14,929 bases of DNA, taken from positions 1 to 14,929 of the forward strand of contig QNBQ01000007.1 of assembly GCA_003645735.1 (NCBI GenBank). The letters are read 5' to 3'. The stretch is from Candidatus Poribacteria bacterium. Lineage in GTDB: Bacteria > Poribacteria > WGA-4E > B28-G17. The position numbers and the translations under genes are program-made. The notes below the pieces were generated by a model. That model had not been told where the DNA came from. It saw only the letters and a program-made list of their open reading frames with translations, and ran no database searches. Position 1 is the stretch's first letter, and every line of letters begins with the position of its first letter. Shown in pieces: positions 851 to 10,812 of this stretch.

Positions 851-1828
851 ATGCGATACGATGAGACGAGGAGGAGGTTCATCAGGAACGTCGCGCTCGG
901 CGCGCTGGGTTTAAGCCTGCCGGGAATGCGGTTCGGCCTCATCGGAGGCGGGAGGTCGAAGGTGGTGATCTCCAAGGACCCGGGCGTCATATCCGAGGAT
1001 CTGAGCGTCAACTCCAGGGCGCTCGGATCGATGCTGGACGAGGCGCTGGCCGCCTTGACGGGCAAAGACCCGATCGACGGACTGAGATCGATCTTCAGCC
1101 CGAAGGACGTGGTGGGGATAAAGGTCAACACGCTGTCCGGGAGGAGGCTATCGACCCATCCCGAGCTGGCCTACGCCGTGGCCGAGAGGCTGATAAAGGC
1201 CGGGGTTAAGCCGGAGAGGATCATCATCTGGGACAGGTTCGACTCCGAGCTGAGGGAGGCCGGCTATAGGATCAACCGGACCGGCAGGGATATTCAGTGT
1301 TACGGGACGGAGGAGAACTACGACGAGGACGTGACGATCCACAGGAACGTGGCGGTCTGTTTCAGCCTGATCCTGAGGAGGTGCACCGCCCTGATAAACC
1401 TCCCCGTTTTGAAACAACATGAGATCGCCGGGGTGACGATCGCCCTCAAAAACTGGTTCGGGGCCATACACAACCCGAACAAATACCACGACAACGGCTG
1501 TGACCCCTACATAGCCGACCTCAGCTCCATAGGCGAGCTTAAGAGGAAGAAGAGGCTGGTCATATGCGACGCCCTGCTCTGTCAATACGAGTTCGGCCCG
1601 AGCTACAAGCCGAGGTATGCCTGGAGGGAGGGCGCGATACTGGTCTCCAGGGACGAGGTGGCGCTGGACAGGGTCGGGATGGAGATCATAGATAGGAAGA
1701 GGAAGGAGGCCGGGTTGAAGCCCCTCAGGGAGAGGCCGGAGTGGTGCAGGTATATCTTCACCGCCGCCGATAGGGAGCACAGGTTGGGGGTCGCCGATTT
1801 GAAGAGGATCGAGGTGGTGAGGGTGTAA
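851..1828 (+). CDS. DUF362 family protein with Tat signal
   Basis: A 325-residue protein. The N-terminus has a twin-arginine signal: RRRF at residues 7-10, then the hydrophobic stretch VALGALGLSLPG, so it is probably exported folded through the Tat system. The body matches the DUF362 family, with the opening SVNSRALGSMLDEAL, the GIKVNTLSGRRLSTHPELAYAV segment and INLPVLKQHEIAGVTIALKNWFG, which is the family's most recognisable stretch. DUF362 proteins often carry a C-terminal 4Fe-4S ferredoxin region; there is no such CxxCxxC cluster here, so this is the short form. The biochemical role of the family is poorly defined. The start at 851 has a GGTGGAAGG ribosome site directly upstream. It is divergent from the helicase-like gene and is followed by the candidate small RNA on the other strand. 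Confidence 0.85.
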   Translation: MRYDETRRRFIRNVALGALGLSLPGMRFGLIGGGRSKVVISKDPGVISEDLSVNSRALGSMLDEALAALTGKDPIDGLRSIFSPKDVVGIKVNTLSGRRLSTHPELAYAVAERLIKAGVKPERIIIWDRFDSELREAGYRINRTGRDIQCYGTEENYDEDVTIHRNVAVCFSLILRRCTALINLPVLKQHEIAGVTIALKNWFGAIHNPNKYHDNGCDPYIADLSSIGELKRKKRLVICDALLCQYEFGPSYKPRYAWREGAILVSRDEVALDRVGMEIIDRKRKEAGLKPLRERPEWCRYIFTAADREHRLGVADLKRIEVVRV

Positions 1829-1860
1829 AAAAATGGCGCGGGTCGCTGTGTACCCGCGCC
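1827..1860 (-). terminator. intrinsic terminator for leftward transcription
   Basis: A perfect 9-bp stem, GGCGCGGGT (1835-1843) with ACCCGCGCC (1852-1860), and an 8-base loop. On the minus strand it is followed by A and then seven Ts (1833-1827). The T run lies on the leftward side only, so this terminates leftward transcripts rather than the DUF362 mRNA. The T run overlaps the DUF362 stop codon. Confidence 0.7.
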
Positions 1861-2003
1861 ACAGGGGGGAGTCGGAGGGCTATCCGATGTCGTCTCCCGA
1901 AGGGTTCCGAATCCAGCCTCACGCTGCCGGCAGCGCCGCTGCCGCCCAGCTCCCGCAGGAGGTTTTCGCGGGAAACGACATCGGCTTGCTCTCGCTCCGT
2001 TAT
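1827..2003 (-). ncRNA. candidate sigma-54-dependent structured small RNA, about 175 nt
   Basis: Leftward transcription from the sigma-54 type element at 2014-2029 would start near 2003 and stop at the 1827-1860 terminator. Between them is a strong rod-like fold. CCGATGTCGT (1884-1893 on the plus strand) pairs perfectly with ACGACATCGG (1975-1984). After one mismatch the stem can continue with TCCCG (1895-1899) and CGGGA (1969-1973). Outside it, CGGAG (1873-1877) pairs with CTCCG (1995-1999). Inside are a 7-bp hairpin (1928-1944) and an alternative 6-bp hairpin (1951-1956 with 1968-1973) whose loop displays ACCUCCU. A C-rich single-stranded segment (UCCCCCCU, 1863-1870) lies between the rod and the terminator. 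It matches no RNA family I recognise; 6S-like shape is possible but its signature is not seen. No convincing reading frame fits the same interval. Confidence 0.5.
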
Positions 2004-2013
2004 CAGCGGATTT

Positions 2014-2029
2014 AGCAACCTACATGCCA
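2014..2029 (-). promoter_or_regulatory. sigma-54 (-24/-12) promoter for the candidate small RNA
   Basis: The minus strand reads TGGCATG-TAGG-TTGCT. This matches the RpoN consensus TGGCACG-N4-TTGCW at all but one position and keeps the exact GG-N10-GC spacing. The predicted start is near 2003, just before the first arm of the RNA rod. Confidence 0.6.
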
Positions 2030-2388: not shown

Positions 2389-2404
2389 TGGCACGTGTAT
2401 TGCT
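2389..2404 (+). promoter_or_regulatory. sigma-54 (-24/-12) promoter of the chaperone/protease operon
   Basis: TGGCACG-TGTA-TTGCT matches the RpoN consensus TGGCACG-N4-TTGCW at every fixed position, with GG (2390-2391) and GC (2402-2403) exactly ten bases apart. The predicted start is near 2415, leaving a leader of about 36 bases before the Hsp20 ATG at 2451. Confidence 0.7.
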
Positions 2405-2450: not shown

Positions 2451-2879
2451 ATGAGGTTCTCGACGTGGTGGGATCCGTTCGCCGAGCTGGAGGCCCTGCA
2501 GAGGGCGGTCAACAGGCTGTTCGAGAGCTTCCTGGGCGAGGGCGAGGAGGTGAGCTACCCACCGGTCAACGTCTGCGATAAGGGCGACGCCTACGTCGTC
2601 AAAGCCTGGCTCCCCGGCGTGAAGAAGGAGGACGTCAACCTGACCGTGCTGGGCAACACGTTGACGATCCAGGGGGAGAAAAAAGAGCCCGATGTGAAGG
2701 GAAACTTTTTCAGGAGGGAGAGATCCTTCGGGCCGTTCCACAAGGTGGTGGAGTTCCCCGCCGAGGTTGATGCGGAAAAGGTGACCGCCAGATACAAGGA
2801 CGGGATACTGACCGTGACGCTTCCAAAGGCCGAGACGGCCAAGCCCAGGCAGATAACCGTCGAAACCGAAACGGAGTGA
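2451..2879 (+). CDS. Hsp20 family small heat-shock protein, first copy
   Basis: A 142-residue alpha-crystallin-domain chaperone that would bind unfolding cytoplasmic proteins without ATP. The N-terminal arm (residues 1-36, MRFSTWWDPFAELEAL) is the usual Hsp20 opening. The alpha-crystallin domain spans about 37-127 and includes LPGVKKEDVNL (54-64) and the signature ARYKDGILTVTLPK (113-126). The C-terminal I-x-I/V-type anchor is ITV (135-137), used for oligomer assembly. A GGGGGG ribosome site (2438-2443) lies seven bases before the ATG. It is the first gene of the plus-strand operon and is followed after 15 bases by a second Hsp20. Control is probably by the sigma-54 promoter at 2389-2404. Confidence 0.95.
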   Translation: MRFSTWWDPFAELEALQRAVNRLFESFLGEGEEVSYPPVNVCDKGDAYVVKAWLPGVKKEDVNLTVLGNTLTIQGEKKEPDVKGNFFRRERSFGPFHKVVEFPAEVDAEKVTARYKDGILTVTLPKAETAKPRQITVETETE

Positions 2880-2894
2880 AAGGGGGTGAGTGAG

Positions 2895-3251
2895 ATGGCC
2901 GAAAGGGAGGAGGTCAGGAGGGTCAGAAGGCTTTACATGCCGGTCGACATATGCGAGACGGACGAGGGCATAATCCTGTGGGCCGAGATGCCCGGGGTCA
3001 AAAAGGAGGATCTGGAGATAAGGGTCGAGGGGAACGAGCTGAGGATCGTCGGCAGGGTCAAGGAGGAAGAGGAGGGCAGGTATCTGCTGAACGAGTGCCC
3101 GACCGAGGGCGAATTCAGGCGGACGTTCACCATCTCCGACGAGATAGACGCGGCCAACATAAGAGCGAAGCTGAGGGACGGCGTGCTGGAGCTGACCCTG
3201 CCCAAGAAGGAGGAGGCCAGGCCGAGGGAGATACCGATAGAGGTCGAATGA
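2895..3251 (+). CDS. Hsp20 family small heat-shock protein, second copy
   Basis: A 118-residue alpha-crystallin-domain protein, shorter than its neighbour because it has almost no N-terminal arm. The domain begins near residue 13 (LYMPVDICETDEG). It contains MPGVKKEDLEIRV (32-44) and the signature AKLRDGVLELTLPK (91-104), and ends with IPIEV, a clean I-x-I anchor. An in-frame GTG exists at 2886, but the GGGGGTGA ribosome site (2882-2889) covers it and is well placed for ATG 2895, which I chose. The short arm suggests it may co-assemble with the first Hsp20 or form smaller oligomers (inference). A stable hairpin (3269-3292) follows the gene. Confidence 0.93.
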   Translation: MAEREEVRRVRRLYMPVDICETDEGIILWAEMPGVKKEDLEIRVEGNELRIVGRVKEEEEGRYLLNECPTEGEFRRTFTISDEIDAANIRAKLRDGVLELTLPKKEEARPREIPIEVE

Positions 3252-3268
3252 GCTTGGAGGTCGGCCAT

Positions 3269-3292
3269 GCCCGGGGGCGACGCTCCCCGGGC
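3269..3292 (+). other. stable hairpin between the second hsp20 and the next gene
   Basis: GCCCGGGG (3269-3276) pairs perfectly with CCCCGGGC (3285-3292), loop of about six bases after a G-U pair. No T run follows, so it is not a standard intrinsic terminator. It may protect the hsp20 part of the mRNA or partly lower expression of the downstream genes. Confidence 0.5.
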
Positions 3293-3325
3293 TATAAAGC
3301 TTAAGGCGACGGGGGTGATCCGGGC

Positions 3326-3604
3326 ATGATGGGGCGGCTCATCGATGGGAGATTGGCCGGACTGATCATCCTTTCCCTTCTGTTGATCCCCTTCGTCTGG
3401 GCCGAGGCGGACGCGAAGCGGAAGGGAGCGAAGGCAATCCTGGCCGAGGTGGCCAGGATATCCCGGCCCCCCGTCCCCGAGCTGGGCGTTAAAGCCGTCG
3501 TTGCGAGGCTGAGGTCAAGGGACAGGGTCCCCCTCTGTCAACCGGTCCGCAGACCGGTTCGTATCTTCGGAGCGGGCTGGAAAACGGAGATAGGAGGCGA
3601 TTGA
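3326..3604 (+). CDS. small putative secreted protein preceding htrA
   Basis: A 92-residue protein that I do not recognise. The N-terminus is a Sec-type signal peptide: charged MMGRLIDGR, hydrophobic core LAGLIILSLLLIPFVW, and a likely cleavage site after AEA near residue 28. The mature part is about 64 residues, basic and Pro/Arg-rich, with one cysteine and no known motif. A GGGGGTGATC ribosome site (3311-3320) precedes the ATG, and the stop lies one base before the htrA start, so translation is probably coupled. Position suggests a periplasmic partner, adaptor or substrate of HtrA (inference). It is real by ribosome site, signal peptide and coupling; function is unknown. Confidence 0.65.
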   Translation: MMGRLIDGRLAGLIILSLLLIPFVWAEADAKRKGAKAILAEVARISRPPVPELGVKAVVARLRSRDRVPLCQPVRRPVRIFGAGWKTEIGGD

Positions 3605-3605
3605 G

Positions 3606-5045
3606 ATGGGGAACGCAGGATGGAAGCTGGCCGCCGTTTCGATCTTCGTATTCGTGCTGCTCCCCCTCGCTTCGGCCCGGTTGAGCGAGGAGGAGCTGGC
3701 GAAGGTCGAGGAGCTGAACAACATCTTCGCCAAGGTCGCCCAGGAGGTCAAACCCTCCGTCGTCAACATCCGCACCGAGAAGGTGGTCAAGATACCCACG
3801 GCGCCGTTCGAGTATTTCGACGACATCTTCAGGAGGTTTTTCAACGAACCGTTCGAATGGTCGCCCCCCGAGGAGGAGGGAGTTCAGCGCAGCTTAGGGT
3901 CGGGCGTGATCGTCTCGGAGGACGGCTACATCGTCACCAACTACCACGTCATTAAAAACCACCCGGACGAGATCTGGGTCACGCTGGCCGATGAGAGGAG
4001 GTTCAAGGCCGAGGTGGTGGGCTCCGATCCCGAGACCGATCTGGCCGTTTTGAAGATCGATGCTAAGGGGCTGCCGGCCATAAAGATGGGCGATTCGGAT
4101 CAGGTGCGCGAGGGGGAGTGGGTGCTGGCCATAGGCAACCCGTTCGGGCTGGGCCACACGATAACCGCCGGCATAGTGAGCGCCAAGGGCAAGTCGCTGG
4201 GGCTGGCCGAGATAGAGAACTACATCCAGACGGACGCGCCGATAAACCCCGGAAACAGCGGCGGCGCGCTCGTCAACCTCAAAGGCGAGCTGATAGGGAT
4301 AAACACGGCCATCGTCTCCACAAGCCGCGGCTACGAAGGGATCGGGTTCGCCATACCGGTCAACATCGTCAAGCAGGTCATAAAGTCGATCATCGAGAAG
4401 GGCGAGGTCGTGAGGGGTTACCTGGGGGTGCTGATCGGAAAGGTGGACTCGGATCTGGCCAGGAAGCTGGGGCTTAAAAAACCGATGGGCGCGGTGGTCT
4501 CGAAGGTCTATAAGGACTCCCCCGCCGACAAGGCCGGGATAAAGAGGGGCGACGTGATACTCAAATACGGCGGCAAGGAGGTCGAAGGCCCCTCCGACCT
4601 GCAGGAGATGGTCGTCACGACCGAGCCGGGCAAGAAGGTCAAGCTGGAGATCTGGCGGGGCGGCAAGCGGAGGACGGTGGAGGTGAAGATCGGCAAGCGG
4701 CCGGCCAAAGTCGCCGAGGCGGGGGCGAGGGTCGAAAAGGAGGAGTGGGTCGGCATCACCGTCCAGGAGCTGACGCCCGATCTAGCGAGAAGGTTCGGCT
4801 ACAAGGAGGATCTGAAAGGGGTCATCATAACCCACGTCAGGCCCGGCAGCCCGGCCTACAGCAAGGGGCTCCGCAGGGGAGACGTCATCCGGGAGATAAA
4901 CGGTAAGGAGATCGAATCGATCGAGGATTACCGCGAGGCCCTTAAGGAGGCCAAGCCTGAGGAGGGGCTCCTGCTGTGGGTCCACAGGAAGCTGCCCGGC
5001 GGCGAGGAGATGGATTTCTACGTGGCGATCTATCCTGAGAAGTGA
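3606..5045 (+). CDS. degP: HtrA/DegP family periplasmic serine protease with two PDZ domains
   Basis: A 479-residue Do-type protease/chaperone of the cell envelope. It opens with a signal peptide (LAAVSIFVFVLLPLASA, likely cut near residue 24). The trypsin-like domain carries the complete triad: His114 (TNYHVI), Asp145 (DPETDLAVLKI) and Ser218 (GNSGGALVN). Two PDZ domains follow, around residues 270-365 (GYLGVLIG, SPADKAGIKRGDVI) and 380-479 (WVGITVQEL, SPAYSKGLRRGDVI). This is the full DegP/DegQ/MucD layout. A TAGGAGG ribosome site (3590-3596) lies nine bases before the ATG. It degrades or refolds damaged exported proteins. It shares an operon with the Hsp20s, rhomboid and S49-like protease, so the unit covers cytoplasm, membrane and periplasm. 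Confidence 0.96.
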   Translation: MGNAGWKLAAVSIFVFVLLPLASARLSEEELAKVEELNNIFAKVAQEVKPSVVNIRTEKVVKIPTAPFEYFDDIFRRFFNEPFEWSPPEEEGVQRSLGSGVIVSEDGYIVTNYHVIKNHPDEIWVTLADERRFKAEVVGSDPETDLAVLKIDAKGLPAIKMGDSDQVREGEWVLAIGNPFGLGHTITAGIVSAKGKSLGLAEIENYIQTDAPINPGNSGGALVNLKGELIGINTAIVSTSRGYEGIGFAIPVNIVKQVIKSIIEKGEVVRGYLGVLIGKVDSDLARKLGLKKPMGAVVSKVYKDSPADKAGIKRGDVILKYGGKEVEGPSDLQEMVVTTEPGKKVKLEIWRGGKRRTVEVKIGKRPAKVAEAGARVEKEEWVGITVQELTPDLARRFGYKEDLKGVIITHVRPGSPAYSKGLRRGDVIREINGKEIESIEDYREALKEAKPEEGLLLWVHRKLPGGEEMDFYVAIYPEK

Positions 5046-5068
5046 GGGAGGGTTTTCCCCTCCCTCAC
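5042..5068 (+). other. perfect 11-bp hairpin between htrA and the rhomboid gene
   Basis: GTGAGGGAGGG (5042-5052) pairs perfectly with CCCTCCCTCAC (5058-5068) across a TTTTC loop. It overlaps the htrA stop codon and ends 13 bases before the rhomboid ATG. No T run follows, so it is more likely an mRNA stability or attenuation element than a full terminator. Confidence 0.55.
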
Positions 5069-5081
5069 GAAGGGGGTAGGG

Positions 5082-5789
5082 ATGATACCGCTAAGGGACA
5101 ACATACCTTCGAGAACCTTCCCCGTCATCACCGTCAGCCTCATCGCCGCGAACTCGCTCGTCTTCCTCTACGAGGTGTCGCTGGGGCCGAGGGTCGTGGA
5201 GCTGGTGATGCGATACGGGCTGATACCGGTGAGGTTCTTCTACACGCTGGCGCGGAACCCGTTCAACCTGGACGATGCGCTGGTGCCGATCTTCACGTCG
5301 ATGTTCCTCCACGGCGGCTGGGCGCATATCATCGGGAACATGATCTTCCTGTGGATCTTCGGGGACAACGTCGAGGACAGGATGGGGCATTTCAGGTTCC
5401 TGATCTTCTACCTGCTGTGCGGCGTTTCGGCCGCCATGGCCCAGGCCTTCACCCATCCGGCGAGCGGCGTGCCGATGGTCGGGGCGAGCGGCGCCATATC
5501 GGGGGTTATGGGCGCCTACTTCCTGCTGTTCCCGACGGCCAGAATTCTGACGCTCGTGCCCGTGTTCATCTTCCTGCAGATAGCCGAGGTGCCGGCCCTC
5601 TTCTTCCTGGGGCTTTGGTTCCTGATGCAGTTCGTGAACGGCGTCTTCTCGCTCGGGTTCCAACACGTGATGGGCAGCGGCGTGGCCTGGTGGGCGCATA
5701 TAGGCGGCTTTGTGGCGGGGATGGTTCTGGTCTGGTTCTTCAAAAGGCCTGAGAGGAAGAGGTATCCCGACGAGTATCAACCCTGGTGA
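5082..5789 (+). CDS. rhomboid family intramembrane serine protease
   Basis: A 235-residue polytopic membrane protein of the rhomboid (S54) family, which cuts transmembrane segments within the bilayer. The first membrane span is near residues 13-31. The helix with HGGWAHIIGNMIFLW (77-91) carries the conserved His77, His82 and Asn86. The catalytic Ser136 is in GASGAISG (134-141), and the partner His206 is in AHIGGFVAG (205-213). Together these make the complete catalytic dyad. The short Arg/Lys-rich tail (KRPERKRYPDEYQPW) faces the cytoplasm. The loop between the first two spans (residues 32-66) is long, as in many bacterial rhomboids. The ribosome site AGGGGGTAGGG precedes the ATG. It is the second of three serine proteases in a row in this operon. 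Confidence 0.93.
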   Translation: MIPLRDNIPSRTFPVITVSLIAANSLVFLYEVSLGPRVVELVMRYGLIPVRFFYTLARNPFNLDDALVPIFTSMFLHGGWAHIIGNMIFLWIFGDNVEDRMGHFRFLIFYLLCGVSAAMAQAFTHPASGVPMVGASGAISGVMGAYFLLFPTARILTLVPVFIFLQIAEVPALFFLGLWFLMQFVNGVFSLGFQHVMGSGVAWWAHIGGFVAGMVLVWFFKRPERKRYPDEYQPW

Positions 5790-5801
5790 GAGGAGGTGAA
5801 C

Positions 5802-6677
5802 ATGTCGTTCTTCGACATCTTCTGGATCTTCTTCATAGCAGCCTCGCTTTCGCCGCTTATAAGGCAGCGGATGTTGGAGGCCAGCAGGTTCAGGCTGATA
5901 AGGAAGATAGAGCAGATGAGGGGGAGCAGGGTGATAGCGCTGATCCACAGGCAGGAGACGATGTCGCTGCTGGGCTTCCCCATCATGCGATACATAACGA
6001 TCCAGGACTCCGAGGAGGTTCTGAGGGCGATAAAGATGACGGACGACGACGTGCCGATCGATTTGATCCTGCACACGCCGGGCGGGCTTGTTTTGGCGGC
6101 GGAGCAGATCGCACACGCCCTGGCCAACCACAAGGCCAAGGTCACCGTGTTCATCCCCCATTACGCCATGTCGGGCGGGACGTTGCTGGCGCTTGCGGCG
6201 GATGAGATCGTCATGGACGAGAACGCCGTGCTCGGCCCGGTCGACCCCCAGCTGGGCGAATACCCCGCGGCCAGCATCCTCAAGGTGCTGGAGATGAAGG
6301 ACAGGAGCGAGATAGACGACGACACCCTTATCCTGGCCGACATCGCCCAGAAAGCCATAAACCAGGTCAGGAACTGCGTCAAAACCCTGCTGCTCAAAAA
6401 GGGCATGGACGAGGCGAAGGCCGAGCGGATAACCGAGGCGCTGGTCATGGGCCACTGGACGCACGACTACCCCATAACGGTCGAGGAGGCCAGAAAGCTC
6501 GGGCTGCCCATCTCAACCGACATGCCCACGGAGATCTACCAGCTCATGACGCTCTTCCCCCAGCCGATGCAGAGGAGGCCATCGGTTCAATACGTGCCGG
6601 TGCCCTACAAGTCGGGCAGGGGGGAGAGGAGGCCTGTTCCCGGAAAAACGGGGTCTTATACGTTTTACCGGCTTTGA
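5802..6677 (+). CDS. membrane-anchored SDH/S49-like serine protease (ClpP/crotonase fold)
   Basis: A 291-residue protein of the 'serine dehydrogenase proteinase' family, related to SppA/S49 signal-peptide peptidases. An N-terminal membrane segment (residues 3-20, FFDIFWIFFIAASLSPLI) is followed by a ClpP-like domain. Landmarks are LILHTPGG (88-95), the Ser124 nucleophile in YAMSGGTLLALAADEIVMD (121-139) and NAVLGPVDPQ (141-150). The C-terminal part has an Arg/Pro/Tyr-rich tail. An in-frame GTG at 5796 overlaps the AGGAGG ribosome site (5791-5796); ATG 5802, five bases after that site, is the better start. It probably removes peptide or membrane fragments on the cytoplasmic face, possibly after rhomboid cleavage (inference). 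It sits 12 bases after the rhomboid gene. Confidence 0.88.
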   Translation: MSFFDIFWIFFIAASLSPLIRQRMLEASRFRLIRKIEQMRGSRVIALIHRQETMSLLGFPIMRYITIQDSEEVLRAIKMTDDDVPIDLILHTPGGLVLAAEQIAHALANHKAKVTVFIPHYAMSGGTLLALAADEIVMDENAVLGPVDPQLGEYPAASILKVLEMKDRSEIDDDTLILADIAQKAINQVRNCVKTLLLKKGMDEAKAERITEALVMGHWTHDYPITVEEARKLGLPISTDMPTEIYQLMTLFPQPMQRRPSVQYVPVPYKSGRGERRPVPGKTGSYTFYRL

Positions 6678-6694
6678 GCCGGGGGTGATCCGCC

Positions 6695-7777
6695 GTGAGG
6701 ATGGATAAAGACTACTACGCCATATTGGGCGTCAGCCGCGACGCCTCCCCTGAGGAGATAAAGAGGGCTTACAGGCGGCTGGCGATGAAATATCACCCGG
6801 ACAAGAACCCCGGCGATAAAGAAGCCGAGGAGAAGTTCAAGGAGATAACGGAGGCGTATCAGGTGCTGTCCGATCCCGAGAAGCGGAGGATCTACGATCA
6901 GCGCGGCATGCAGGGGCTGCACGACATCGGCTTCAGGGGGTTTGAGGGGCTGAGCCTGGACGAGATCTTCAGCAGCTTCGGCGACTTCTTCTCCGACCTC
7001 TTCGGACCCGATTTCATCCCCTTCAGGTTCAGGACTGCCGGGCCGGAGCGGGCGAGGGCTCCGCAGAAGGGGGCCGATCTGAGGGTCGAGGTGACCGTCC
7101 CCTTTGAGGAGGCGGCCCTGGGCGGAAGGAGGGAGATAAGGGTCGAGAGGTCTGAAAGCTGCTCCGAGTGCGGAGGGACGGGCTTCAGGGGCGGCGGGGT
7201 CTGTCCGAGCTGCGGCGGCAGCGGCTTCATCACCCGCCGGGAGAGCCGGTTCGGAGGTTTCTTCCAGATAAGCACCACCTGCCCCACCTGCGGCGGAACC
7301 GGAAGGGCCGGAACGCCGTGCCCGGCCTGCGCCGGGACGGGCAGGGTTAAGAGGCCGAGGACGATCTCCATAAGGATACCCCCCGGGGTCGAGGACGGAA
7401 CCGTTCTGAGGGTGCCCGGCCAGGGAGAGGCCGGGAGGAGCGGCGGCCCGCCGGGCGACCTATACGTCGTGATCCGCGTGGCGGATCACCCCCTCTTCAA
7501 GAGGGACGGGCTGAACGTCATCTCCGAGGTCAGGGTCCCCTACACGACCGCCGCCCTGGGCGGCGAGGTGACGATAGATACGATCCACGGCAGGGCGAAG
7601 CTCAGGATACCGCCCGGAACCCAGTCGGGCCAGATGTTGAGGCTGGCCGGGATGGGGATAAGGGCGCCCGACGGCAGGAGGGGGGATCACCTTGCCAGGG
7701 TCATGATAACGGTTCCCAGGAGGCTGACCGAAAGGCAGAGGAGGCTTTTGGAGGAGCTGGCCAAGTTCGAATCGTGA
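6695..7777 (+). CDS. dnaJ: DnaJ (Hsp40) co-chaperone
   Basis: A 360-residue type I Hsp40 that delivers unfolded clients to DnaK and stimulates its ATPase. The J domain spans about 4-70, with HPD at residues 34-36. A Gly/Phe-rich linker follows (75-115). The zinc-binding region has all four CxxCxGxG repeats (156-163, 170-177, 196-203 and 209-216). C-terminal substrate-binding domains I and II run from about 218 to 345. GTG 6695 is preferred over ATG 6701 because the ribosome site GGGGGTGATC (6681-6690) is nine bases from GTG and too far from ATG; both give almost the same protein. No dnaK or grpE is in the window. It is the last gene of the operon and ends seven bases before the convergent regulator gene. 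Confidence 0.95.
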
Positions 7778-7784
7778 GGCGGGG

Positions 7785-9185
7785 TCATTCGACCTTGAAA
7801 TCGAGGGTTATGCCGTAGGATCTGATCTTATCCCTGAGGGTCGTCCTGCTCATGCCGAGCAGCCTCGCCGCTTGCGACTGGTTCCCCTTCGTCCTCCTCA
7901 ACGCCCTGACGATCAGCTCCCGTTCGATCCACCTCATCGGGTCGTTCACACCGCTTTCGACCGCTCTCCTGAAAAGCTCGTCCAGAAGCTCCTCGGTGCT
8001 CCTCTCCTCAACCCTCCTCAGCTCCACCCGCTCTATCAGTATGTCGTCGGCGGTTATGATCGGCTCGTGACAGACCACCACCGCCCTCTTTATCACATTT
8101 TCAAGCTCCCTGACGTTTCCCGGCCAATCGTGCTCCATCAGCTTCTCGATCGCCCCGTCGTCGAAGCCGATGATCGTCTTGTCGACCCTCTTAAGCTCCC
8201 TCTCCAGGAAATATCTGGCCAGAAGCGGGATGTCCTCCTTCCTCTCCCTCAGGGGAGGGAGCTTGATCGTCACCACGTTCAGCCTGTAGTAGAGATCCTC
8301 CCTGAACCTCCCCTCCGCTATGAGCTTTTTGAGGTCTTTATTGGTGGCGGCGATGATTCGGACGTCGACCTTGATGCTCTCCGTCCCGCCCAGCCTCTGT
8401 ATCTCCCCCTCCTGAAGCACCCTCATCAGCTTGGCCTGGGTGGAGAGGGGCATGTCGCCGATCTCGTCCAGGAAGATCGTTCCGCCGTCGCATTGCTCGA
8501 ACTTCCCTATCCTGCGGGTGTAGGCGCCCGTGAGGGCGCTCCGTTCATGGCCGAAAAGCTCGCTTTCAAGCAGCGGCTCGGGTAGGGCTGCGCAGTTGAC
8601 CGGCAGGAAGGGCTTATCCGCGCGCCTGCTGTGGGTGTAGATCGCCCTGGCCACGAGCTCCTTGCCCGTGCCGCTTTCGCCCTGGATCAGGACGGTCATA
8701 TCGGTCGGGGCCACCTGGCCGATCAGCTTGTAGACCTCCTGCATGGCGGGCGAGTTGCCGATCAGCATCTCCCCCTCCCCGAAAACCCTCTCGCCCTCCA
8801 GCCCGACGTATCCCCTCATCATCCTGCCGGCCTGAACGGCCTTTTGAACGAGGTCCTGAAGCGTGGGGATGTCGAACGGCTTGAGGATGTAGTCGTAGGC
8901 GCCCCTTTTGACGGCCTCTATGGCGGTGTCGGTCGTGCCGTAAGCGGTCGCGACGATGACCGGCAGCTTTGGGTCGATCTCCTTTATCCTCCGCAGCGCC
9001 TCCAGACCGTCCATGCCCGGCATCCTTATGTCCATTATCACGGCGTCGGGGGAGGATCTCTTGATCTTGGAGAGCGCCTCCTCGGCTGATCTGGCCAGCT
9101 CCACCTCGAACCCCCTGGAGGTGAACAGCCTCTTAAGCGAATACCTGACGCTGGGGTCGTCGTCCACGACCAGAACCCTTCCCAT
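7785..9185 (-). CDS. NtrC-family sigma-54-dependent response regulator with altered GAFTGA motif
   Basis: A 466-residue regulator in three parts. The receiver has acidic residues DDD (8-10), phospho-acceptor Asp52 (VIMDIRMPGMDG), Thr80 and Lys102. The AAA+ sigma-54 interaction domain has Walker A GESGTGKE (169-176) and Walker B GGTIFLDEIGD (234-244). The Fis-type helix-turn-helix is near 422-460 (NQSQAARLLGMSRTTLRDKI). The loop that contacts sigma-54 normally reads GAFTGA; here it is SALTGA (216-221), with Ser for Gly and Leu for the key Phe. A GTG at 9197 overlaps the kinase stop, but ATG 9185 gives the usual MGRVLVVDDD opening after a GAGGGGTGAT site. It pairs with the upstream kinase and is the best candidate activator of the two sigma-54 promoters near 2014-2404. 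Its DNA targets are inferred. Confidence 0.92.
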   Translation of the reverse strand: MGRVLVVDDDPSVRYSLKRLFTSRGFEVELARSAEEALSKIKRSSPDAVIMDIRMPGMDGLEALRRIKEIDPKLPVIVATAYGTTDTAIEAVKRGAYDYILKPFDIPTLQDLVQKAVQAGRMMRGYVGLEGERVFGEGEMLIGNSPAMQEVYKLIGQVAPTDMTVLIQGESGTGKELVARAIYTHSRRADKPFLPVNCAALPEPLLESELFGHERSALTGAYTRRIGKFEQCDGGTIFLDEIGDMPLSTQAKLMRVLQEGEIQRLGGTESIKVDVRIIAATNKDLKKLIAEGRFREDLYYRLNVVTIKLPPLRERKEDIPLLARYFLERELKRVDKTIIGFDDGAIEKLMEHDWPGNVRELENVIKRAVVVCHEPIITADDILIERVELRRVEERSTEELLDELFRRAVESGVNDPMRWIERELIVRALRRTKGNQSQAARLLGMSRTTLRDKIRSYGITLDFKVE

Positions 9186-9193
9186 ATCCCAAA

Positions 9194-10444
9194 TCACCCC
9201 TCGATCGGCAGGTAGACCCTGAAGGTCGCCCCCTTCCCCGGGGAGCTTTCCACCTCTATCCTGCCCTTGTGTTCCTTGACGATCCGCTCAACTATCGAGA
9301 GGCCCAAGCCTATGCCCTCCTCCTTGGTCGAGAAGAAGGGCTCGAAGATCCTGTCCATGATCTCCTCCGGTATCCCCTCGCCGGTGTCCGAGATCTCCAC
9401 GAGCGCTTCTCCGGGCAGCCTCTCGGTCCTTATCCTCAGCTCCCCTCCCTCCGGCATCGCCTGAACGGCGTTGAGGGTGAGGTTGAAGATCATCTGTCTG
9501 AGGTGGTCTCTGTCGGCGAACACGACCAGACCGGGCGCCAGCTCCATCCTCAGGGAGATATCGCTCCCCCTCATCTGATGCTCCAAGAGCGAGACCGTGT
9601 TTTCGACGACCTCGCTCAGATCGACCCATTGTGGCAGCGGGGCTGAGGGGCGGGCGAAGTCGAGGAACCTCCTTATCAGCTCCTCCATCCTCTCTATCTG
9701 GCTCCTCATCACCTCCACGTCCTCGGGCCGTTTTTTGTCGAGTTCGAACTCCTCGACGAGGGAGTGGAAGAGGATTTTGATGCTTGAGAGGGGGTTTCTG
9801 AGCTCGTGGGCGATCCCGGCGGCTATCCGGCCCAGGGCGGCGAGCTTCTCGGACTGCATAAGCTGCCTGTGGCTCTCCTCCAGCTCCCTCATCGCCTCCC
9901 TCACCCTCTCCTCGAGCGATCTGTTCAGCTCCTTGAGCTCCTCATACATCTCGGCGTTCTCTATCGCCACGCCCGCCTGGTTGACGAACGTCACCAGCAG
10001 CTTGAAATCCTCCTCGGTTATCTCCCTTTGCGAGTGGAGGTTGTCGGCGGAGATCACCCCCACCACCCTTTCGCGCCCGATCATGGGGACGGCTACGAAC
10101 GATTTGATCTTCAGCTTCTCGACCACCTCTTTGTTCACCCTGGGGTCGTTGAGCGCGTCGCGGATGATGTAAGGCCTCCGCTCACAGGCCGCCCTGGCCA
10201 CGACGCTGCTTTCCGGCTCAAGCGGGAAGACGATCGAATCGATCAGATCCAGGTCGACGCCGACGGCCATCCTGCACTTCAAAACCCCCTCCTTCTCGTC
10301 CACCAGGTAGAGCCTGGCCCTGTCGAAGCCGATCGTCTTCGTCACCCCGTCCAGGATCAGCCTGAGGACCTCCTCCAGGTCGAGGGTCTGGAGCGACCTG
10401 CTTATCTCGTAAAGGGCCGTGAGCCTCTCATCATACCCGCTCAT
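9194..10444 (-). CDS. GAF-domain sensor histidine kinase (NtrB/AtoS-like partner)
   Basis: A 416-residue soluble kinase with no membrane segment. An N-terminal GAF sensor domain (about 6-165, ending [17 protein letters not shown]) is joined by a coiled coil (165-200) to the HisKA domain, with phospho-accepting His213 in [12 protein letters not shown]. The catalytic domain has the N box with Asn321 and Asn325 ([15 protein letters not shown]), the G1 box DTGEG (353-357) and the G2 box GIGLGLSI (377-384). It overlaps panD by four bases (ATGA) and is followed immediately by the sigma-54 regulator. It is therefore the probable phospho-donor to that regulator, sensing a cytoplasmic ligand or redox/gas signal through GAF. 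The ligand cannot be told from sequence. Confidence 0.93.
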
Positions 10445-10812
10445 GAAACCCTCTCCTCCCGCACCTCCTTCACCCTGTTCTTGGAGTCGACGAGCACGAC
10501 CTTGGCTTTGAACGTTTTAAGCTCCTCATCGGTCAGGAGGGCGAAGGAGGCGATGATGACCAGATCCCCGACCTGGGCGAGCCTCGCGGCGGCGCCGTTC
10601 ACGCAAATGACGCCTGATCCCCTCTGGCCGGGTATCGCGTAGGTCTCGAACCTGGCGCCGTTTGTGACGTTGAAGACGTAGACCTTTTCGAAAGGCAGGA
10701 TATCGGCGGCTTCCATCAGCTCCTCGTCTATCGTCAGGCTCCCCTCGTAATTCAAGTTCACCTCGGTGACGGTTGCCCTGTGTATTTTCGATTTACAGAT
10801 CTCCCTCAGCAT
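10441..10812 (-). CDS. panD: L-aspartate alpha-decarboxylase
   Basis: A 123-residue pyruvoyl enzyme (E. coli form 126) that converts L-aspartate to beta-alanine and CO2 for pantothenate and CoA synthesis. The Gly24-Ser25 bond in NYEGSLTID is the self-cleavage site that generates the pyruvoyl group. Lys9, Arg54 and Tyr59 ([10 protein letters not shown]) and the [18 protein letters not shown] core are conserved. A GGAGGGG site precedes the ATG. It has its own promoter in the gap after the hybrid kinase gene and overlaps the downstream histidine kinase by four bases. It is an unusual partner for a two-component pair: no panB or panC is nearby. The role is certain; the reason for the linkage is unknown. 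Confidence 0.95.

Follow-up and report, generated by a model that had tools for sequence, protein, structure and literature searches.

In the 14,929-nucleotide stretch of Candidatus Poribacteria DNA analysed here (the window), a predicted small RNA gene of about 177 nt (1827-2003, minus strand) converges on a DUF362 gene and is followed at 2451-7777 by a run of plus-strand genes which, as identified with Pfam, code for two Hsp20 proteins, a small ORF product with no Pfam match, a DegP-type protease, a rhomboid protease, a ClpP-like SDH protease and DnaJ, and which probably form an operon. Next to it lies a minus-strand gene (7785-9197) for an NtrC-type response regulator with receiver, Sigma54_activat and HTH_8 domains, as detected in a Pfam scan. 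An aspartate decarboxylase gene (10441-10812, minus strand) sits between two histidine-kinase genes, and the run of signaling genes around it encodes kinases, response regulators and a KaiC-like ATPase. The window's own genome (G000; 2.64 Mb, 76.6% complete) has a single family member in the comparison set, G001, which belongs to a different genus and is 95% complete.

A preliminary description of this DNA had placed a -24/-12 (sigma-54) element on the minus strand at 2029-2014, and this element, TGGCATGTAGGTTGCT, proved to match TGGCAYN5TTGCW with 0 mismatches, predicting a transcription start at A2003 on that strand. With up to one mismatch allowed, the window contains two sites, both perfect, against an expectation of 0.29, and at least two such sites turned up in 5 of 200 shuffles of the window. 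The second site, TGGCACGTGTATTGCT (2389-2404, plus strand), was absent from that description and was found on follow-up; it is a perfect match, diverges from the first and stands 46 bases ahead of hsp20. The orthologous hsp20 genes of G001 are preceded by a -24/-12 promoter of their own, TGGCATACGGTTTGCA (L078 8280-8265, minus strand), and, judging from these elements, the small-heat-shock operon seems to be under sigma-54 control. Genome-wide, the strict TGGCAYN5TTGCW pattern has 14 sites in G000 versus 0 with a reversed control, and 37 versus 4 in G001; this enrichment, together with the many NtrC-type activators encoded in the two genomes, implies that the genome carries rpoN. Separately, we noted that an identical -24/-12 sequence, TGGCATGAAAGTTGCT, recurs at four places in G001 (C20, C56, C164 and C213) and is perhaps part of a repeated element. 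Thirty -24/-12 loci were inspected for a T run no more than 600 bases past the predicted start; apart from the RNA gene, a single locus had one, L099 (about 1500-1640, plus strand, G001:C62), where it comes 99 bases past that start and could mark the end of another short transcript.

The RNA predicted to begin at A2003 folds with a minimum free energy of -91.4 kcal/mol (z -5.07), a stability equalled by 0 of 200 shuffles, and when its terminator is left out the z-score is -3.27, with 1 of 200 shuffles equally good (200 shuffles per sequence were used for each of these two values and ranks). The dominant element is a rod in which 1969-1984 forms the 5' arm and 1884-1899 the 3' arm on the minus strand. 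The earlier count of 15 pairing positions out of 16 in this helix turns out to be slightly too cautious, as all 16 are consecutively paired, 15 of them by Watson-Crick pairs and one by G-U. The intrinsic terminator previously assigned to 1860-1827 was likewise recovered by a terminator scanner and by its fold (1827-1862, minus strand); it comprises an 11-pair stem at 1862-1833 and a T run at 1833-1827, the first T of which falls within the stem, and it has a z-score of -5.33 on its own. On the opposite strand, the DUF362 stop codon (1826-1828) falls partly within this T run. The RNA is thus predicted to be a unit with its own promoter and its own terminator. No known RNA family had been recognized at the locus, and an Rfam search of the window bore this out with 0 families at gathering score; at E-values up to 10 there were nine sub-threshold matches, the best with E 0.22, which we took as chance.

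BLAST searches with the RNA across 145 genomes, G000 included, found it only in G000 and in G001, where the match lies on contig C110 (E 1.5e-6). This sequence scores 121 bits with the covariance model R2, C110 being one of the two sequences from which R2 was built. With the same model, 2 of 84 genomes of the phylum carry the RNA at confident scores (stricter filters being used above 40 genomes), and each has one copy. Three extra R2 matches with E-values of 0.12-0.33 were set aside as chance; they lie within open frames of 1074, 789 and 1659 nt, and the stretches examined around them (L186 among them) contain no -24/-12-like site. With R1, built from G000 alone, the plus strand of the window outscores G001, the rod being nearly palindromic, and the corresponding alignment A4 was not used. 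Alignment A5 misplaces part of the 3' arm, leaving R2 slightly off there, and the pairs were therefore compared directly. No description of this RNA was found in the portions of open-licence PMC text that were available.

The G001 locus (L033, minus strand) has the same order of elements as the window, namely two palindromes, the -24/-12 promoter TGGCACGGGGATTGCT (350-335) in the same relative place as TGGCATGTAGGTTGCT, a rod, a 20-nt tail and a terminator with a T run. The promoters of both homologues have the GG and GC at a 12-base spacing, and the G001 RNA folds with a z-score of -5.00, or -2.99 without its terminator. The preliminary description had named loss of the stems or of the -24/-12 element in homologues as evidence that would speak against the RNA; the one homologue found keeps promoter, upstream sites, rod, tail and terminator. 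Its rod has 14 pairs in the same register as the 16 of G000 (15 if one outer U-A is counted), two pairs being absent from both arms, and three further pairs differ by a one-sided exchange (GC/GU, AU/GU). In the terminator stem, two adjacent pairs show double compensatory changes, from C-G to U-A and from G-C to A-U. The search for compensatory changes suggested in the preliminary description is thus answered in part: structure-keeping changes do occur in the rod and the terminator, but they are seen in two sequences only, too few for a covariation statistic. We also simulated unconstrained divergence in 1000 copies, with substitution and indel rates of our own choosing and the tail held constant. 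A helix of at least 15, as long as that of G001, survived in 1 of the 1000, and 245 of the 1000 fold no less stably than the G001 RNA, so that it is the continuity of the helix, and not its energy, that argues for selection.

The surroundings of the two genes are dissimilar. In G001 the RNA gene lies downstream of genes for an NtrC-type regulator and a histidine kinase, and the DUF362 orthologue (72% identity) is on a different contig, with other genes after it. This difference in neighbors indicates that the unit has been kept independently of its surroundings. It also bears on the proposed link to a chaperone/protease operon, which stands as far as the window is concerned, where the RNA gene adjoins that operon, but does not extend to G001, where the RNA and the hsp20 operon are on different contigs and the RNA is beside the NtrC/histidine-kinase pair. 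The association is accordingly positional, seen in one genome only, and suggestive. The comparison shows that the promoter, the paired upstream sites, the structure, the tail and the terminator, all of them predicted elements, are conserved as a unit in two genomes and at two locations.

Like the second promoter, the palindromes upstream of the RNA came to light on follow-up. One of them, GTGAAATTTTGTCAC (2094-2108), is centered at about -98 from the predicted start and has 3 mismatches to TTGACANNNTGTCAA (TTGACA-N3-TGTCAA); the other, TTGACAAGTTGTCAA (2138-2152), centered at about -142, is a perfect TTGACANNNTGTCAA and a likely binding site for an enhancer-binding protein (bEBP). Their counterparts in G001 are GTGTAATTTTGTCAC (L033 423-437, centered at about -106) and TTGACATGTTGTCAA (L033 466-480), respectively, and the spacing is 44 bp in G000 as against 43 bp in G001. 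Their placement agrees with the distance of about 80-200 bp expected of upstream activator sites in a sigma-54-dependent unit. The perfect TTGACANNNTGTCAA occurs only once in G000 and only once in G001, at the RNA gene. The two -24/-12 promoters of the window diverge from a single 360-bp region holding the palindromes, an arrangement that makes shared control possible; beside the G001 hsp20 genes no palindrome with up to three mismatches was found. Across the class, TTGACANNNTGTCAA is present in 29 of 82 genomes, with 46 sites listed versus 27 for a reversed control (column sums); it is only modestly commoner than the control, and many of the class sites are chance occurrences.

The coupling of TTGACANNNTGTCAA to a promoter was counted as well. 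With a looser -24/-12 pattern sought on either side, a -24/-12-like site stands 40-220 bp away in 5 of 45 distinct contexts, against 0.37 expected from the remainder of these loci (5 in 200,850 positions); two of the five, however, are the very RNA genes that prompted the count. G006, G034 and G079, which represent three genera of family f6, supply the remaining three. In G006 the site is flanked by a bEBP gene on one side and a YtxH-domain gene on the other, in G034 it is ahead of an apparent protein gene cut by the contig end (judged by eye), and in G079 the neighboring sequence has no significant fold (z 0.16). The YtxH-domain gene itself (L068 749-1144, minus strand, G006:C4), standing behind the palindrome and the -24/-12 site, is a likely member of the same regulon. 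Across 411 residues, the G006 bEBP shares 57% identity with the one encoded beside the G001 RNA; for the latter, the best near-full-length matches in G000 and G001 have 53% identity, and partial ones go up to 57%.

Proteins with a Sigma54_activat domain are encoded in the window, on G000:C186 and on G001:C110. The NtrC-type regulator of the window is one candidate activator; its G001 orthologue is 75% identical and is encoded on C71, away from the RNA, and its matches number 40 in G000 and 79 in G001 when receiver-only ones are counted. In the HTH region, the G000 protein closest to the bEBP beside the G001 RNA is that of C186, with 27 of 40 residues in common, the bEBP of G006:C4 having 24 of 40; this comparison covers 13 G000 regulators, two of them truncated, out of 15 examined, the remaining two giving no HTH score. 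The counterpart of the C186 protein in G001 is on C152, and each of the two genes comes after an rsmG-like gene (judged by eye), in G000 with one extra gene intervening. These resemblances point to one activator family using the palindrome site, and do not single out the protein that would serve the RNA. As an aside, NtrC-type regulators usually carry the motif GAFTGA, and at this position the window regulator (7785-9197, minus strand) reads SALTGA and its G001 orthologue (L079 4182-5621, plus strand) GAFTSA; the sigma-54-contacting loop of the window protein may hence be altered.

Between the rod and the terminator lies a C-rich tail of 20 nt, UAGCCCUCCGACUCCCCCCU (1863-1882, minus strand), that is identical in G000 and G001 and is a likely seed for pairing with mRNAs. 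Its last five bases (CCCCU) are unpaired with a probability of at least 0.99 in both fold models. The nine-base CUCCCCCCU is unpaired in G001 (at least 0.96) and has four bases paired in the G000 model, in which 10 positions of the 20-nt tail are mostly paired. With up to two mismatches the tail is found in 2 of 82 genomes of the class, and there are 0 exact matches in the genome_contigs and viral_contigs collections, from which records near the window's genome may have been left out. Among hand-picked gene starts, that of hsp20b pairs best both in G000 (of 14; -25.7 kcal/mol) and in G001 (of 11; -18.9 kcal/mol). In an automatically compiled list of 31 G000 starts hsp20b is outdone by a regulator gene and takes second place; among 46 G001 starts hsp20b is outside the top 12, and its hand-derived value would rank ninth. 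The tail is a generic anti-Shine-Dalgarno sequence that pairs with many ribosome-binding sites, and it names no target. The covering of Shine-Dalgarno sites by C-rich UCCC stretches is a known route of sRNA repression, exemplified by LhrC, RsaE and FsrA in the part of PMC4132741 that deals with them. The only Hfq candidate in G000 (76.6% complete) is a 230-aa protein that ends in a sub-threshold Hfq-like domain, and the 95% complete G001 has no match at E 0.001. The 230-aa protein (L259 1474-2166, minus strand, G000:C5) scores 22.6 bits with Pfam at its C-terminus, below the cut-off; its best sequence match in the PDB is an Hfq (E 0.013), and the preceding stretch is perhaps Sm-like, as judged by eye.

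The same features could be accounted for in other ways. If the GGA motifs or the C-rich tail served to titrate an RNA-binding protein, the transcript would be a sponge of the CsrB/CrcZ kind with no mRNA seed. PMC7602753 gives sequestration of the RNA-binding protein Crc as the role of CrcZ; the G000 RNA has 6 GGA motifs and the G001 RNA 5, as against shuffled means of 3.4 and 2.6, and one GGA is within the stretch UGGAUUCG kept in both. This excess is weak, however, being reached by 197 (G000) and 203 (G001) of 2000 shuffles, and the invariant stretch is the C-rich tail rather than the GGA sites; we regard a sponge as unlikely. Far less probable is a short coding transcript that specifies a small protein or a leader peptide. 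The G000 transcript does contain a 20-codon ATG ORF, and an 86-codon TTG ORF (2018-1758) overlaps the region, but the frame opened by the aligned ATG of G001 is only 4 codons long before its stop, no protein is shared between the ORFs listed for these two sequences, and the 86-codon ORF begins within the promoter and reads through the terminator.

It is equally improbable that there is no RNA gene at all, with the hairpin serving only the convergent DUF362 gene, as its boundary element, and with a rod that is a chance inverted repeat. In favor of this, no more than 5 bases separate the start of the hairpin from the DUF362 stop codon, and an inverted repeat can fold whichever strand is read, R1 giving the plus strand 40.5 bits; on that strand, however, the hairpin is followed by CAGGGGGG with no T run, and G001 keeps hairpin, rod and promoter though its DUF362 orthologue is on another contig. 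Slightly less credible again is a 6S-type RNA that binds RNA polymerase through a long rod with an internal bubble. The length of about 177 nt, the rod-like form and the large asymmetric internal loop that both fold models show would fit this, but Rfam gives no 6S match even at E-values up to 10, 6S is not usually controlled by a -24/-12 promoter plus enhancer sites, and 6S RNAs are not known for a conserved C-rich single strand.

We therefore return to a sigma-54-dependent non-coding RNA, which, given the conserved elements described above, is very probably real. For such an RNA, pairing of the C-rich tail is the reasonably probable mode of action, and the proposal taken as a whole, a free-standing sigma-54 RNA gene that is bEBP-activated and represses translation via its C-rich tail, seems moderately likely to us. 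Under this proposal, an NtrC-type bEBP would bind both upstream palindromes and drive sigma-54 polymerase at 2029-2014, so that transcription would start near 2003 and stop at the terminator, at 1827. The rod would protect and stabilize the RNA, and the tail between rod and terminator would pair with the G-rich ribosome-binding sites of target mRNAs. Translation of the targets would thereby be lowered under the condition sensed by the bEBP, probably without a canonical Hfq.

The predicted RNA constitutes a new family of an already known kind, the sigma-54 sRNAs. Rfam holds GlmY, Qrr, CrcZ and 6S. Qrr and CrcZ are sigma-54-dependent, and LuxO and CbrB are NtrC-type regulators; activation by regulators of this type, proposed also for the present RNA, is the point of likeness to it, and the present RNA differs in having no Rfam match and in its one copy per genome, where Qrr has several. 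To our knowledge, the sigma-54 sRNAs that can be named all come from Proteobacteria. The preliminary remark that sRNAs under sigma-54 are few is a fair one, known examples in the available parts of the literature including GlmY (PMC6075780) and NrsZ and GlnZ (PMC9731577); Qrr and CrcZ are given in PMC7602753 as activated by LuxO and CbrB. In the sections of PMC6075780 concerned with it, glmY has a sigma-54 promoter and three activator sites TGTN12ACA, and lies upstream of qseEGF. This QseF-activated sRNA of Enterobacteriaceae resembles the present RNA, as predicted, in its sigma-54 promoter, its several upstream activator sites and its proximity to two-component genes (PMC6075780), but the RNA described here has no Rfam match, a different palindrome (TTGACA-N3-TGTCAA), a 16-pair rod and no recognized glmS-type target. 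NrsZ of Pseudomonas aeruginosa, as portrayed in part of PMC9731577, is an RpoN-dependent sRNA downstream of ntrBC, and the G001 homologue is also downstream of an NtrC/histidine-kinase pair; the window RNA, in contrast, is divergent to hsp20 and has no Rfam match, and the likeness is one of description and not of sequence. In Listeria, cell envelope stress, together with the LisRK two-component system, induces LhrC, which shares with RsaE of Staphylococcus, FsrA of Bacillus and the present RNA a C-rich UCCC stretch able to cover G-rich Shine-Dalgarno sites (PMC4132741, in part). Those, however, are RNAs of low-GC Gram-positive bacteria for which sigma-54 control is not described in the corresponding passages of PMC4132741, whereas the RNA here has one invariant 20-nt tail, the candidate seed, beside a long rod.

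In functional terms, it is conceivable, though we consider it doubtful, that a lineage lacking a canonical Hfq uses this sigma-54 RNA, specific to it, as the non-coding branch of its response to envelope or protein-folding stress. The activator family of the YtxH-domain gene, and perhaps of the chaperone/protease operon, would then also induce the RNA, and the rod would replace an RNA chaperone as the stabilizer. The finding adds a predicted sigma-54 sRNA from an uncultured lineage, with promoter, candidate activator sites, structure and candidate seed all readable from its sequence, and with the unit retained through a change of genomic neighborhood. It offers a testable activator site (TTGACA-N3-TGTCAA) and a testable seed, and would represent a case of small-RNA control in a lineage where Hfq seems absent or atypical.
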